Assembly (NCBI GenBank): GCA_013001045.1 | Contig: JABDNG010000064.1 | Location: 1 to 64,000, forward strand | Source: Woeseiaceae bacterium | Lineage (GTDB): Bacteria > Pseudomonadota > Gammaproteobacteria > Steroidobacterales > Woeseiaceae | Length of the DNA: 64,000 nt | Direction of reading: 5' to 3' | In this document: piece by piece, positions 12,393 to 19,807 of the stretch | Position numbering within the stretch: position 1 is the first letter of the stretch | Layout: each line of letters opens with the position of its first letter | The notes under the pieces: generated by a model | The model's database searches: none | The model's input: the letters and a program-made list of their open reading frames with translations, nothing else | Told to the model about the DNA's origin: nothing | Program-made: the position numbers and the translations under genes

Positions 12393-14608
12393 AACGGGCT
12401 CTTTATTTTCTGGTGGCGGCGTCCGGCGTCGGACTCGCGCTCACCGCATTATTCCTGCTGACACAGACGGTGCAGAAGTCTGACGATTTTGATCGTCTGC
12501 AGGACATTATTCTTGCGATCAACATTGCCGGCGGTGTTCTGCTCGCCGCACTCCTGGTCGGTAACCTCACTCGTTTGCTGCGTGACTACCGGCAGAATGT
12601 GCCGGGCGCCAAACTCAAGGCCCGTATGGTTGCGATGTTCGTCGGTCTCGCGGTTCTTCCGCTACTCGTCGTCTTTTATTTCTCGATGCAGTTCATCAAT
12701 CGCGGCATCGACAGCTGGTTCAATGTGCAGGTTGAAGAAGGACTCGATAACGCGTTGACACTCAGCCGCGCCGCGCTCGAAATGCAAAAGCGGCAGAATT
12801 TAGTCGCGACACAACAAGTGGCACAGAGGCTGTCACTGGTGAGCGACCGCCAGGTCATCTTCGAACTCAGTCTGTTGCGGCGAGAAATCGGCGCGAGTGA
12901 AATGACGTTGTACGGTGACAACAACACGGTGCTTGCAACGAGCTCGGACAGTTCCACGGCGGTGTTGCCGAAGCCCTTATCCGAAGAAGTCGTATTACAG
13001 ATGCAACAGGATCGGCCGTTCGTTAGCCTCGAATCGTATGGCAGTGACAGCGTAGAAGTACGCACCGCAGTCGTCTTCAGACAACAAGGCAGGGGTGCAC
13101 GGCAGGTGCGCGTTGTCCAGGCTCACTTCCCGGTGACCGAACGTCTTGGCCGCATGATCAGCAGCGTGGAAAAGTCGTACCAGGAGTACCAGCAATTGCT
13201 GTTCTTCCGCGAGGACCTGAAAGACCTGTTGTCATTAACGCTCGCGTTCGTGTTATTGCTGAGTTTGCTCGCCGCTATTTATGGCGCATTTGTCCTGTCG
13301 CGCCGGCTCGTCGCGCCGATCCAGGATCTCGTGGCTGGCACCAGGGCTGTGGCCATGGGCGATTTCGACACGCGCTTGCCGACGCCAACCCGCGATGAGA
13401 TCGGTTTCCTGATTAGCTCGTTTAACGACATGACGCAACGGCTGGCGACCGCGAGACGTGAGGCCAGTCTGAACCAGGCGCTGGTCGAGGCGGAGCGTGC
13501 GAATCTCGAGGTCATCCTCGCGCGCCTGTCCACCGGCGTCCTGGCACTCGAGACAGACCTGAGAATACGCACGGCGAACCAGGCGTCCGGGTCAATCCTG
13601 GGCGTCGATCTCGAGAGCCGCACCGGTGAGTCGCTGACCGAGGTTGCCAAGGACAATCCGCTCCTCGAACAATTCGTTGATGTCGCGTGCGTACACCTTG
13701 ATGCCGGAGAAACAGACTGGCGCGAACAGATCGTATTGCGCGGCGACGTAGGTCGGCGCGTGTTGACCTGCGCATGCACTACGTTGCCCGGCGACGAGGA
13801 TCATGCGGCCGGTTACGTTATCGTGTTCGACGACATTACGGCGCTGCTGCAAGCGCAGCGAGATGCGGCCTGGGGCGAGGTCGCGCGGCGCCTGGCGCAT
13901 GAGATCAAGAACCCCTTAACCCCGATTCAGTTATCGGCTGAACGGATGCGTCGTAAATACCTGCATACATTGCCCGAGCAAGAGGGTCAGGTGCTTGATC
14001 GTGCGACGCATACGATCGTGCAACAGGTCGAAGCCATGAAAGAAATGGTAAACGCGTTCAGCGACTACGCGCGCGCACCGGACATGGACTTCAGCCTGTT
14101 CGATTTGGATATGCTGGTGCATGAAGTAGTTGACCTTTATCGCGCGCAGGAAAGCGGGGTCGAGATCGTGCTGACGACAGATCCGACGATGCCGTTGATT
14201 GAGGCCGATATCGGGCGCGTACGGCAAATCCTGCACAATCTGATGCGAAACGCGGTGGAGGCCCTGGAAGGGCTGGACAAAGGAAGGATTGACGTCCATG
14301 TCAGTGCTGCAGAAATCGATGACGTCGACATTATCCAGATCAAAGTCGAGGATAACGGGCCGGGCTTCAACAGGGGCTCCCTGGATCAGATCTTTGATCC
14401 ATACGTTACGACGAAGCCCAAGGGCACCGGCCTCGGGCTCGCAATTGTTAAGAAACTGGTGGAAGAGCACGTTGGCTCGATTCGCGCAAGCAATCGAAAA
14501 GACGGAGGAGCAATGATCAGCATCCGCCTGCCTGTAAACGATGCGGCGCGTGAACAGATTATCGCTAGGGCGCCTCGACGCGCAGACAAAAGGAGGGAAC
14601 AGGCATGA
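12374..14608 (+). CDS. ntrY: NtrY-like sensor histidine kinase
   Basis: Multiple TM segments, [35 protein letters not shown]-box, [16 protein letters not shown]. Confidence 0.92.
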
Positions 14609-15963
14609 GCAATCCTCATGTATTGGTGGTCGACGACGAGGCAGACATTCGGGATCTGATCCAGGACATCCTGTCGGACGAAAATTTTGGCGTAACTGTC
14701 GCGGCGAACGCGGACGAGGCTCGTCAGGCCCGCGCGAACAGGAAGTTCGACCTTATTCTTCTCGATATCTGGATGCCAGACACCGATGGTATTACGTTAT
14801 TGCGCGAGTGGTCTGACGGTGGCGACCTGACGTGTCCCGTGGTCATCATATCGGGTCACGGCACGGTCGATACGGCGGTCGAGGCCACGCGACTGGGTGC
14901 CTTTGACTTTGTAGAGAAACCGCTGTCGATCGCGAAACTGCTACGCACAGTTGAGGGCGCGCTCGCCTCGGCCGGGCGGCAGGCGCGTGCTGCACACAAG
15001 TTGCTGCCTTCATTGCTGGCCCCGGTTGGCCGCAGCCAGCTGATGCAGGGATTGCGGGAGCGCATCCAGCAGTTTGCGCGGCACGACGGATCGGTGTTGA
15101 TGAGCGGTGAACCGGGGACCGGGCGTGGCGCGTTTGCCCGATACATGCACGCCTTGAGCCGCCGGGCCCACGAGCCGCTCACGAGCCTTACGGCAGCGTC
15201 GATTACCGACGACAACATCGAAAAGCAGTTCCTTGGATCGAAGAGCGGTGAAGAGGCTGTCGCCGGCGTGTTCGAGCGTGCCGCCGGCGGCACGCTGGTT
15301 ATCGATGAGCTCGCCGACCTGAGCGCCGCCGCGCAAAAGGTGTTGTTTGGCATACTGGAGGATGGCAGTTTCACTCGCGTCGGCGGCACCGGGCGCATCA
15401 AAGTGGATGTGCGGATCGTGGCAACGGTTGGGGCCGACTATGAATCCAAGATCGACTCCGGCGAATTGCGCCGTGACCTGGTCGCTCACCTGAGTGAGTT
15501 GAGCATACGCATACCGCCGTTGCGCGAATATGCGGAAGATGTGCCAGAGCTATTGACGTATTACGTCGACAAGCTTGTCGATTCGGAAGGGCTGAAATTC
15601 AGGCGATTCAGCGTTGCGGCGCAAAATCGCCTGAGGAACTATCCGTGGCCGGATAATGTGCGCGAGTTAAAGAACCTCGTGCGGCGCTTGCTGTTGTCTG
15701 GTCGTGGTGAAGATATTTCGCTCGAAGAAGTTGAGGCGGAGATCAGCGCGACAGCTGCGGTAGACGAGCCCCTGGTCAAGCAGGACCTCCTGGCGTTGCC
15801 GTTACGCGAAGCGCGCGAACAATTCGAACGTGCCTATCTGCAACAGCAACTGGTGCTTTGCGACGGTAAGGTCGGACAGCTCGCAAAACGTGTGGGAATG
15901 GAACGGACGCACCTGTACCGGAAACTGCGGGCACTTGGCGTGGACTTCAAGTCGGTCACCTAG
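14605..15963 (+). CDS. ntrX: NtrX-like sigma-54-type response regulator
   Basis: [21 protein letters not shown] receiver, AAA-like central domain, Fis-type HTH C-terminus ([16 protein letters not shown]). Confidence 0.9.
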
Positions 15964-16041
15964 AACGATTAACGTCAACCCCACCACGCAACGTCTGATC
16001 GCGGCGTCGATCGCCGGGGAATCTCAGTCGCTCGGACAGCT

Positions 16042-16066
16042 GTTTCACAAACTCGCTTTGTGAGAC
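16042..16066. repeat. stem-loop downstream of ntrX (possible terminator-like structure)
   Basis: GTTTCACAAA-CTCGC-TTTGTGAGAC, 10-bp arms with one G-U type pair. Confidence 0.55.
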
Positions 16067-16107
16067 ACCCCGGCACTCGCCGCCGCTGCCCGAGAGTGTG
16101 CTGATAG

Positions 16108-16234
16108 GAGGGCTGTGGTTGGGGAGTTCCTCGAGCGTCGTGCGAACCTCGGTCCCGCTTGACGGGAGCCCGATGAGAGCGAGGCAGGACGCCGAGCGAG
16201 CTTAAGCGAGAGGAACTCCCCAAGCGCGGCCCTC
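16108..16234. repeat. ~127 bp imperfect palindromic element; structured RNA or MITE/REP-like repeat
   Basis: Outer arms GAGGGCTGTGGTTGGGGAGTTCCTC / GAGGAACTCCCCAAGCGCGGCCCTC (14 bp perfect inner part, 25 bp total with two wobble and one mismatch); nested TCCCG-CTTGA-CGGGA hairpin. Confidence 0.6.
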
Positions 16235-16264
16235 TAAGTAAGAAGTTTGGGTGGTGGTTCAGCG

Positions 16265-17455
16265 TTAGTCGTCTGAGACTTGCAGGACGTGCGGTTTTAC
16301 CGGTGGGCGCGAGGTCGGCAGTATCCGTCCGTCTGAGAGAAACTGAAGGCCCGGCTCACCGAAGTCAGCAGTACTTAAACCACGTATCAGATCCAGCGCC
16401 CGATGTCGCGGATCGACGCTTGGACCGGCCGGGCGCAGCTGAATTGTCGAGACGATTTTGCCTTCGACAAACACACCGTTGCCGTCCAATGTCGTAGTGA
16501 GTATTGGAGCGATTCCCTTGATGCCCGCGACACTGATGCCGTAATACGTGGCGAAATTGCCAAGGCTGTAGGCAATGAGCCGACCATTGTAATTCTCCAT
16601 ACCGCGCACGACGTGCGGTCCATGGCCGATGACCAGGTCCGCGCCGGCGTCAACGACGCCCCGAGCGAACCAGACGACGTCACCCCGCGGTTCACCGTAA
16701 TACTCCTCCTCCGCAAACGGAACGTGAGTAACGTCGGTACCTTCCGCGCCACCGTGAAACGAGACCACGACAATGTCATGGGATGCCGAAAACCTCGCGA
16801 CCGTTTCGAAGGCGAGATCGTAGTCGAGCATCATGTTTGAATTCTTGGTTACGGCATAGGCGAGAACGGCGACGCGGATGCCGTTGAACTCAAGGCTTGC
16901 GAAGTCGTCGACGCGTCCGGAATGATGCATACCCGCCGCGGCAATTGCCTGCATGCTGCTGCTGCGGCCCTCCTCTCCAAAGTCACGAGCGTGGTTATTC
17001 GCGAGGCTTAACACGTCGAATCCGGCTGCGCGGTAATGCTGCGCGTAGCGCGTCGGTGAACGAAACAGGTAGCAGGCACTGGGGTTGCTGCATTTTTTTC
17101 CCGGTTCGCCGCCGTCGAGCAGAACGCCCTCGAGATTGCCGAACGTGAGGTCGGCCGACGACAGGTACGGCGCCACGTCGGCAAGAAAGCCGACACCGTC
17201 GTCGTCGGGCAGGTGGTTTCGCGGATAGTCGGTGCCGATCATCATGTCGCCAACCGAGGCGATACTGATGCGCATGGCCGATTTGTCAGGCGCTTGCGGG
17301 GACGGCGGTAATTCTGCGGTCTGTGGCGCGGCCTGTTCGGGGGGTGCCGGTGGCTCGGCAGGCGCTTCGGGCGCCGGGCTCGTTGCGCAGCCCAGCAGTT
17401 GCAGCAGCGCTACAACGAGGCCGACGTACCGAATCTGCCTGTGAGCCCTAGTCAC
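16265..17455 (-). CDS. CapA family (PGA capsule-synthesis-type) lipoprotein
   Basis: LLGCAT lipobox, ISIASVGDMMIGTDYP, ADLTFGNLEGVL, VLSLANNHARDFG, DLVIGHGPHVVRGME. Confidence 0.88.
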   Translation of the reverse strand: MTRAHRQIRYVGLVVALLQLLGCATSPAPEAPAEPPAPPEQAAPQTAELPPSPQAPDKSAMRISIASVGDMMIGTDYPRNHLPDDDGVGFLADVAPYLSSADLTFGNLEGVLLDGGEPGKKCSNPSACYLFRSPTRYAQHYRAAGFDVLSLANNHARDFGEEGRSSSMQAIAAAGMHHSGRVDDFASLEFNGIRVAVLAYAVTKNSNMMLDYDLAFETVARFSASHDIVVVSFHGGAEGTDVTHVPFAEEEYYGEPRGDVVWFARGVVDAGADLVIGHGPHVVRGMENYNGRLIAYSLGNFATYYGISVAGIKGIAPILTTTLDGNGVFVEGKIVSTIQLRPAGPSVDPRHRALDLIRGLSTADFGEPGLQFLSDGRILPTSRPPVKPHVLQVSDD

Positions 17456-18026
17456 TGAGGCGAATCCGGAATACGTCTATCTTGGCGGCGCGCAAACGAC
17501 TGCGCAGCATGTTCAATTCATCCAGGTCGTCGGTTGGACCAATGTAGACACGATGGTAGTCGCGGTCATTGACCTTGACGCGCTGGATGTGGGATTCGAT
17601 ACCATGCAGCGCGAGTTCGGCGCGCCTCCGATCGGCATCGTTGTTCGTGGAAAACGAGCCGGCCTGGAGTACGTAAACGCCGGGCTCCTCGATCGCCTTC
17701 GGTGTTACGTTCGCGGCAATGTCCGGCTCTTCATCCGGGGTGACGACCTCGAAATTAGGCAATATGTCGTAGAAGGTGAAGCGCCTGTCTCTTGTCGACT
17801 CCTCGGCCTCAACGGTCTTCGTTCCTTCGCGGTTGTCATCGAAGGATTCCGGCAGGCTGGCGGGTCGCGGTGAGGGCGCCTGCGCCACCATCGCAGGCTC
17901 GCGGTCTTTCACGTAAACCGCAACGGCGACGGATAAGCCGATCGCCAGACCAAAAAGCATCCAGACAAACGGTGGGTACCCCGACTTCTTTGAACGACGC
18001 ACGCGACGTTTTTTGCGTTTCGCCAT
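17448..18026 (-). CDS. SPOR domain protein (FtsN-like)
   Basis: Basic N-terminus, TM, C-terminal YVLQAGSFSTNNDADRRRAELALHGIESHIQRV SPOR motif. Confidence 0.88.
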   Translation of the reverse strand: MAKRKKRRVRRSKKSGYPPFVWMLFGLAIGLSVAVAVYVKDREPAMVAQAPSPRPASLPESFDDNREGTKTVEAEESTRDRRFTFYDILPNFEVVTPDEEPDIAANVTPKAIEEPGVYVLQAGSFSTNNDADRRRAELALHGIESHIQRVKVNDRDYHRVYIGPTDDLDELNMLRSRLRAAKIDVFRIRLSD

Positions 18027-19807
18027 TACATCTTCTCCGGGGCGGATACGCCGAGAATGCCGAGGCCGTTCGCAATGACGACCTGCGTCGCAGAGATCAG
18101 ATAAAGCCTCGCGTCTCGTAACGCGTCATTATCGACGATAAACGCATGTGCGTTGTAATACGTGTGAAAATCATTGGCGAGATCGCGCAAGTAATGCACC
18201 AGGTGTTGCGGTGCGCGATTGTTTGCAGACAATTCGACGACTTCGGGATAGCGGCTCAACGACGTCATCAGTGTCTTTTCCTGGGGTTCGAGCAGCAACC
18301 CGAGCTGTTTCTGGCCGTTATCGCTGTTCCAGGCAAGTGATTTTTCGCCGAGCTGCCGAAAGACACTCGCCACACGGGCGTGCGCATATTGAATGTAATA
18401 GACCGGGTTGTCACTGGATTGCGACTTTGCGACGTCGAGGTCGAATTCGAGGTGCTGATCATTTGACCGCGACACGTAGTAGAAGCGCGCAGCATCGTTG
18501 CCGACCTCCGCGCGGAGTTGACGCAGCGTGTCGAATTCGCCCGAGCGTGTCGACATCTGCACCTTCTTGCCGCCGCGGTAAAGTGCAACGAATTGCATCA
18601 GCTCGACTTCAAGGCTGTCGGCTCCGTAGCCCATTGCCTCGAGTCCGGCCCTGACCCGGGTGACATAGCCATGGTGGTCGGCGCCGAGAATGTCGATCAG
18701 ATGATCGAAACCACGTTCTCGTTTGTCGAAGTGGTAAGCGATATCCGAGGCAAAATAGGTTTTGATGCCATTTTCGCGAACGACAACGCGATCCTTCTCG
18801 TCACCGAAGTCCGTCGCCGGGAACCAGGTGGCGCCGTCCTTCTCGTACAGCATGCCACGCTCCTTCAGAACATTGAGCGCGTCATCGATGCGATTGGATG
18901 TTGTCAGGCTTTGTTCGGAATACCACGTGTCGAACGTTACACCGAATTCGGCGAGATCGTCTTCGATGTCGTCGCGAATCGAATCCAGGGCCTGTTGTCT
19001 CACCTGATCGAAGCCGGTGTCGCCGAGCAGTGTCTTCGCTCTGGCGATCAATGCCTCGACATACGCCTCTTTATCGCCATCCGGCGCATCGGCGGGAAGA
19101 TCGGAAAGGACGGCGTCTGCGCTGACCGTATTGACGCCGTCGATATTTATTTCGGCGGCGATGTCACGAATATAGTCGCCGCGATAGCCGCCTTGCGGAA
19201 ACGGGACGGCAATACCCTGTTTTTCGAGCAGGCGCAGCCAGACGCTTACGCCCAGGATGTCCATTTGCCGGCCCGCATCGTTGACGTAGTATTCGCGATG
19301 CACCGGGTAGCCAGCGGCCTCGAGCAGGTTGCCGACGGTGGCGCCGTAGGACGCGTGTCGACCATGCCCCACGTGCAGTGGTCCGGTCGGGTTCGCCGAC
19401 ACAAACTCAAGCAAAATTTTTGGCGCATCCCGTTCGGGTTGTCTCCCGTAGCTGTCGCCCTTTTGCAGAATCGACGCCAGTTCGGCATAAAAAGCGGACG
19501 GGCTCAGGTGAAAATTGATAAAACCCGGTCCGGCAATCTCCGTCCGGCTGACATCCGCGCTCTCGGCCAGCGCGTCGATGATGGACGCCGCTATGTCGCG
19601 CGGGTTCTTGCGAGCCGGTTTTGCGAGGCGCATGGCGATATTGCTGGCGAAGTCCCCATGGCTGGCGTCGCGGGTGCGCTCGACCGTGTCTTCGATGGAT
19701 AAATCGGACGCGGCTTCCGCCAGTTCAGGCAGGCCGGCAAGGGCATTTTCGACAAGTTGCGTGACGATGTGTTTCATTACGGAGGGGCCAGATTTGCGAG
19801 GCGGCAA
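18026..19807 (-). CDS. argS: arginyl-tRNA synthetase
   Basis: EFVSANPTGPLHVGHGRHASYG, VQMSTRSGEFDTL; 593 aa. Confidence 0.97.
   Translation of the reverse strand: MPPRKSGPSVMKHIVTQLVENALAGLPELAEAASDLSIEDTVERTRDASHGDFASNIAMRLAKPARKNPRDIAASIIDALAESADVSRTEIAGPGFINFHLSPSAFYAELASILQKGDSYGRQPERDAPKILLEFVSANPTGPLHVGHGRHASYGATVGNLLEAAGYPVHREYYVNDAGRQMDILGVSVWLRLLEKQGIAVPFPQGGYRGDYIRDIAAEINIDGVNTVSADAVLSDLPADAPDGDKEAYVEALIARAKTLLGDTGFDQVRQQALDSIRDDIEDDLAEFGVTFDTWYSEQSLTTSNRIDDALNVLKERGMLYEKDGATWFPATDFGDEKDRVVVRENGIKTYFASDIAYHFDKRERGFDHLIDILGADHHGYVTRVRAGLEAMGYGADSLEVELMQFVALYRGGKKVQMSTRSGEFDTLRQLRAEVGNDAARFYYVSRSNDQHLEFDLDVAKSQSSDNPVYYIQYAHARVASVFRQLGEKSLAWNSDNGQKQLGLLLEPQEKTLMTSLSRYPEVVELSANNRAPQHLVHYLRDLANDFHTYYNAHAFIVDNDALRDARLYLISATQVVIANGLGILGVSAPEKM

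Follow-up and report, generated by a model that had tools for sequence, protein, structure and literature searches.

A long BIME-like dispersed element of two structured, outward-facing hairpins at gene ends in Woeseiaceae

The palindrome in the spacer between an ntrX-like and a capA-like gene of a Woeseiaceae metagenome-assembled genome (MAG) is one damaged copy of a composite dispersed element that consists of two hairpins. It lies in a stretch of 64,000 nucleotides (contig JABDNG010000064.1), here called the window. The element occurs in many copies, its stems stay paired through compensatory changes, each of its two modules prefers one strand, the modules face outward, and they sit at gene ends, at sites that species share while the occupants are exchanged. 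Probably, the window holds a decayed copy of a BIME/REP-dimer-like element with two long structured modules pointing outward (A<B>) between convergent 3' ends, for which we infer a role as RNA, CsrA binding and spread. On the best reading, the element is a new, long BIME-like variant with partly TwoAYGGAY-like hairpins.

Extent and parts of the element

The initial annotation had placed a structured element at 16042-16234. The palindromes it described are present, but its boundaries were too narrow: the composite element extends from roughly 15977 to 16257 (Table 1), and alignment to the best copies begins near 16000 and ends at about 16233-16258. In the window the two modules, A and B, are 86 and 123 nt long; elsewhere they reach about 150 nt. 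RNA folding of 16042-16240 gave -100.4 kcal/mol (z = -4.58 against 200 shuffles).

Table 1. Features of the element and its flanking genes in the window.
Feature	Position	Strand	Remark
ntrX-like response regulator gene	14605..15963	+	left flank
C-rich left tail AACCCCACCAC	15977..15987		complementary in character to right tail
Module A hairpin	16001..16086	-	R1 model match; covarying; wobble-tolerant RNA/ssDNA 'sense' strand is minus
Small stem-loop of the initial annotation, GTTTCACAAA-CTCGC-TTTGTGAGAC	16042..16066		tip of module A; local alternative pairing, as drawn not conserved
Module B multibranched hairpin	16110..16232	+	TwoAYGGAY-like, decayed copy; R2 model match, 116 bits; covariation
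Module B closing stem	16110-16132 / 16210-16232	+	long, variable
Short REP-like palindrome CCTCGGTCCCGCTTGACGGGA	16147..16167	+	inside module B; 21 bp
P3 hairpin GGCAGGACGCC	16183..16193	+	single GGA site left, similar to a CsrA site
G-rich right tail GGGTGGTGG	16249..16257		
capA-like gene	16265..17455	-	convergent right flank

The first stem-loop has the sequence originally given, but it is not a separate unit, being merely the tip of a conserved hairpin in which 16001-16026 pairs with 16061-16086. Its 10 pairs form in about 70% of cells, compared to 93-97% for the larger hairpin (77 copies). The arms described for the large palindrome, 16108-16132 and 16210-16234, do pair over 25 positions, with 22 Watson-Crick pairs, two G.U pairs and one G.G mismatch (16118/16224), and 14 bp of these are perfect (16119-16132 with 16210-16223). 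Both nested pairings, GCGTC/GACGC and TCCCG/CGGGA, were found as well, although the latter belongs to a 21-bp palindrome sitting within the window copy.

This short palindrome occurs in eight copies in the genome of the window (G000) at up to three mismatches, and the reversed control gave none. At two other loci (L028 and L033) it was inserted without loss. Several genomes of the genus have it, either alone or within modules A and B (the window, L028, L030, L033, L016, L017 and L019).

Short tails flank the modules. Of 91 sampled sites, 43 had the C-rich tail on the left and 5 had it on the right, while the G-rich tail was on the right at 38 and on the left at 3. Reading from either gene, a C-rich, G-poor tail comes right after the stop codon, and such tails could be candidates for likeness to Rho entry sites.

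Copies are dispersed in the genome and across the order

BLAST recovered about 10 near-full copies and many partial ones in G000, and further copies in four other genomes (G009, G023, G024 and G037). With covariance models, after removal of opposite-strand duplicates, G000 contained about 15 A and 12 B modules. In the order, module B matched 32 of 196 genomes, which belong to four families and 12 of 60 genera; module A matched 7 of the 196, mostly inside the genus. An exact 22-nt module B pattern was found on 17 contigs among about 85,000 genomes; 15 of these carry Woeseiaceae in their title, and the other 2 come from a single unclassified gammaproteobacterial MAG. Copies within one genome resemble one another; those from other species were sampled among the best matches.

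An Rfam scan of window region 14000-19000 returned no match at E<=1. When G000-type copies and A modules were searched against Rfam, nothing was found for A, and for B only a resemblance to RF01731, in relatives. A literature search for hairpin repeats between convergent genes with compensatory change found nothing.

Stems covary and each module prefers one strand

The initial annotation took dispersed copies as a sign of a repeat and covariation as a sign of a non-coding RNA, and the element has both: the copies listed above and very strong covariation in the two modules. Since the alignments were fitted to the model, raw percentages, such as the 94.6% of cells paired in 51 B copies of the genus, weigh less than the slid and shuffled controls and the listed stems. 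Shuffling lowered that value to 80.1% and left 80 double-changed cells versus 269. Across the order, module B had 315 double-changed cells versus 88 after shuffling, and pairing fell to about 30-45% when the partner was slid by 1-3 columns. The closing stem, nearly unrelated in sequence at this level, was still 93-97% paired. Module A had 174 double-changed cells (duplicates removed), and its pair cells were standard in 93% of cases when read on the plus strand and in 97% when read on the minus strand (77 copies). An individual example is the P3 pair 16184/16192, which is G-C in the window and G-C, A-U or C-G among copies. The per-column difference between genomes was 0.13-0.18 in the B core versus 0.43 in the outer stem, which means that the core sequence is constrained too. 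A MITE in the strict sense, with 25-bp terminal inverted repeats, as first suggested, does not agree with arms that are not a fixed sequence and vary freely yet stay paired.

Wobble pairs distinguish the strands. On the plus strand, B stems contained 143 G.T and 22 A.C combinations and A stems 9 and 71, which indicates that module A folds on the minus strand. A model-free recount that scored G.T and A.C alike gave ratios of 98:14 for B and 18:181 for A, the latter inflated by fixed positions, and the order-level B copies kept the same direction (39:16). For the strand asymmetry and for the pairing in module A, deduplicated counts were used in place of ones that included opposite-strand duplicates of the same loci. 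Mutation bias was considered as the source of this asymmetry and ruled out, because unpaired columns had no matching bias (C>T 5.7% and G>A 4.0% in B; C>T 5.1% and G>A 6.6% in A). By these counts, B pairs as RNA (or ssDNA) on the plus strand and A on the minus strand. A strand-specific skew that is absent at unpaired columns suggests that selection acts on a single-stranded fold (RNA or ssDNA) of one particular strand. The initial reading of a structured RNA was partly right; a small RNA from the ntrYX 3'UTR is not supported.

Module B resembles TwoAYGGAY RNA

TwoAYGGAY RNA (Rfam RF01731, clan CL00106) is a proposed CsrA-binding RNA (PMC4333381), and G000 encodes a CsrA gene. In one relative (L203) the RF01731 model fell on the exact B interval and strand with 36.4 bits, below its gathering threshold of 43 bits. 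Only one relative (G091:C246) reached that threshold, with a full-length match of 44.6 bits at a place where the B model matches too; most copies scored below it. No RF01731 match was found genome-wide in G000, including the window copy. We call module B TwoAYGGAY-like because RF01731 falls on the corresponding stretch in relatives. Both have a long, poorly conserved external stem around two GGA-loop hairpins on the same strand. Unlike in TwoAYGGAY RNA, the loops of B are often AGGAC or AGGGAC and not AYGGAY, and the element has many dispersed copies in which B and a second module, either A or another B, face outward.

Two CA(N)GGAYG sites were present in 38 of the 51 genus copies, spaced 38-39 nt apart in 37 of those. 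In a wider set, 24 of 30 copies had exactly two such sites and one more had three, usually with a spacing of 38-43 nt. A slightly narrower GGA-site pattern was expected 0.05 times per shuffled copy. The window copy still has module A and the stem of B, with just one GGA site of the AYGGAY type left. Its first site is lost: the P2 segment that carries it is missing beside the 21-bp palindrome, whereas L028 and L033 have kept P2 next to the palindrome. With a single GGA site, CsrA binding by the window copy is doubtful. We therefore refrain from classing the window element as TwoAYGGAY RNA; its intact relatives are TwoAYGGAY-like.

Outward pairs occupy shared sites at gene ends

At 32 of 33 two-module sites the modules faced outward, as A<B>, its flip, or A<A>. 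B<B> pairs were found in other families (L214, G091) and in G049 (L139). A third hairpin type (stem TTCGTTGGCG with an AGCGAG-rich loop) replaces B beside A, also outward-facing, in L039 (800-1150, minus strand) and in the ntrX/capA spacer of L066. One contig stretch with an A module (L196) also matched two RNA families, the c-di-GMP-I-GGC riboswitch above the gathering score and the Xoo8 sRNA weakly, under the gathering score (2071-2154 and 236-516).

Among 85 classifiable sites, 55 lay between convergent, 29 between co-directional and 1 between divergent genes, compared to 8, 39 and 9 of the gene junctions in the window; genes were called with a simple codon-usage caller checked against the window. 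The median distance between a site and the stop-codon side was 40 nt.

Sites are often shared between species. Of 94 sampled sites, 72 formed 22 groups, each common to at least two species. Yet orthologous modules were hardly more similar than non-orthologous ones (B 0.60, A 0.55, where 0.5 means no site signal), so sites persist across species while the occupying module gets replaced. Same and opposite orientations at orthologous sites were counted at 37:43. Inversion in situ, first suggested by this ratio, was rejected, as outward geometry (left <, right >) together with module exchange or loss accounts for the orientations without it.

The ntrX/capA spacer itself varies in this way. It contains A<B> in G000, both modules in the opposite arrangement in G037, A alone in G023, B alone in G024, and A adjoining a different hairpin in G034. 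In 12 relatives, ntrX and capA overlap or are at most 19 bp apart. Occupied and empty sites were too diverged for defining a target-site duplication. In L072 and L087, which are from other species, the spacer holds long, near-perfect palindromes unrelated to the element.

These comparisons bear on the small RNA first proposed, a discrete transcript processed from the ntrYX 3'UTR. The strong fold at the ntrX 3' end would suit it, but the element is not ntrYX-specific, is absent from the ntrX/capA site in at least 12 relatives, and differs there in module orientation and content among the five genomes just named. Moreover, solo modules between co-directional genes had no preferred sense orientation with the upstream gene. 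We consider this origin very improbable. The tally of such solo modules, 14 antisense versus 6 sense, further argues against simple action in the 3'UTR of the upstream gene.

The placement could also reflect bidirectional terminators that separate convergent genes. Quasipalindrome correction (template switching) would then keep their arms complementary, and they would have little function at the RNA level or in mobility. Convergent placement, the short distance to stop codons and the unrelated palindromes in the same spacer of L072 and L087 are in line with this. However, it leaves the conserved multibranched core, the strand asymmetry and the modules shared across families unexplained, and we regard it as quite unlikely.

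Comparison with known dispersed palindromes

REP and BIME sequences are dispersed extragenic palindromes that form inverted dimers and lie in convergent or co-directional spacers near stop codons (PMC3733652). REP units measure 20-40 bp and include GTAG- and CGTC-tagged families, the latter with stems of 8-9 bp (PMC3733652). The element resembles them in its multiple extragenic palindromic copies, its frequent inverted dimers and its location between convergent or co-directional genes close to stop codons. It differs in module length (about 86-150 nt), in cores that are branched and conserved in sequence, and in that no linked RAYT was found. Both modules contain CGTC, located within the structure instead of tagging the end of an 8-9 bp stem. 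The REP-like dispersed palindrome considered in the initial annotation fits in behaviour and placement, but classical REPs are shorter and less structured than these modules.

REPINs are REP doublets mobilised by RAYTs, with the inverted pair as the unit. The element shares the inverted pair, but it is not associated with a RAYT, modules of different type can form a pair, and its stems covary freely. Like MITEs, it is small, non-coding and dispersed, and has inverted repeats; unlike them, it has no fixed terminal inverted repeat, and only the short C-rich and G-rich tails recur.

A search for a linked RAYT (Y1 transposase) flanked by the element found none. Y1_Tnp searches detected a single RAYT-like gene for G000, as well as four full IS200-type genes, located in G009, G016, G017 and G032. 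RAYT/IS200 was rejected as a driver, since none of these genes is flanked by the element and their presence is uncorrelated with it. The RAYT-like gene of G000 (L043, 1462-2199) is followed by direct repeats with GGTCCGACCCGCGGATTGC, which are unrelated to the element.

A purely selfish alternative is that A and B are non-autonomous ssDNA hairpins, moved single-stranded by a strand-reading nuclease of the HUH/RAYT type or another kind, without an RNA role. The strand-specific G.T tolerance would fit an ssDNA hairpin used in transposition too, the dimer geometry resembles that of REPINs and BIMEs, and copies within a genome are alike. On the other hand, Y1_Tnp genes were no commoner in element-bearing genomes (tally), the Y1_Tnp genes found are not flanked by the element, and a double-GGA core matching an RNA family would not be expected. 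This alternative is possible, though unlikely.

Discussion

If the BIME-like reading with an RNA role is correct, each module would form a folded RNA in transcripts leaving either convergent gene. The folded modules may then act as bidirectional 3'-end or termination structures and protect mRNA. Intact B modules, with two GGA hairpins, might bind CsrA/RsmA. Either a trans-acting activity or ectopic recombination between sites may have spread the copies.

A bolder proposal is that mobile TwoAYGGAY-like candidate CsrA-binding hairpins, multiplied as outward pairs at conserved convergent sites, act together as a distributed CsrA sponge that is fed by transcription, with occupants exchanged between sites. 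We put this forward tentatively and consider it unlikely.

The element brings a structured candidate regulatory RNA together with dispersed extragenic palindromes, two things that are usually separate. Tolerance of wobble pairs on one strand is a simple sequence test for the strand on which folding is selected, and it can be used on REPs and BIMEs in general. If module B binds CsrA, the function of TwoAYGGAY RNA becomes testable, and the number of copies at gene ends would determine how much CsrA is available in this marine sediment lineage.
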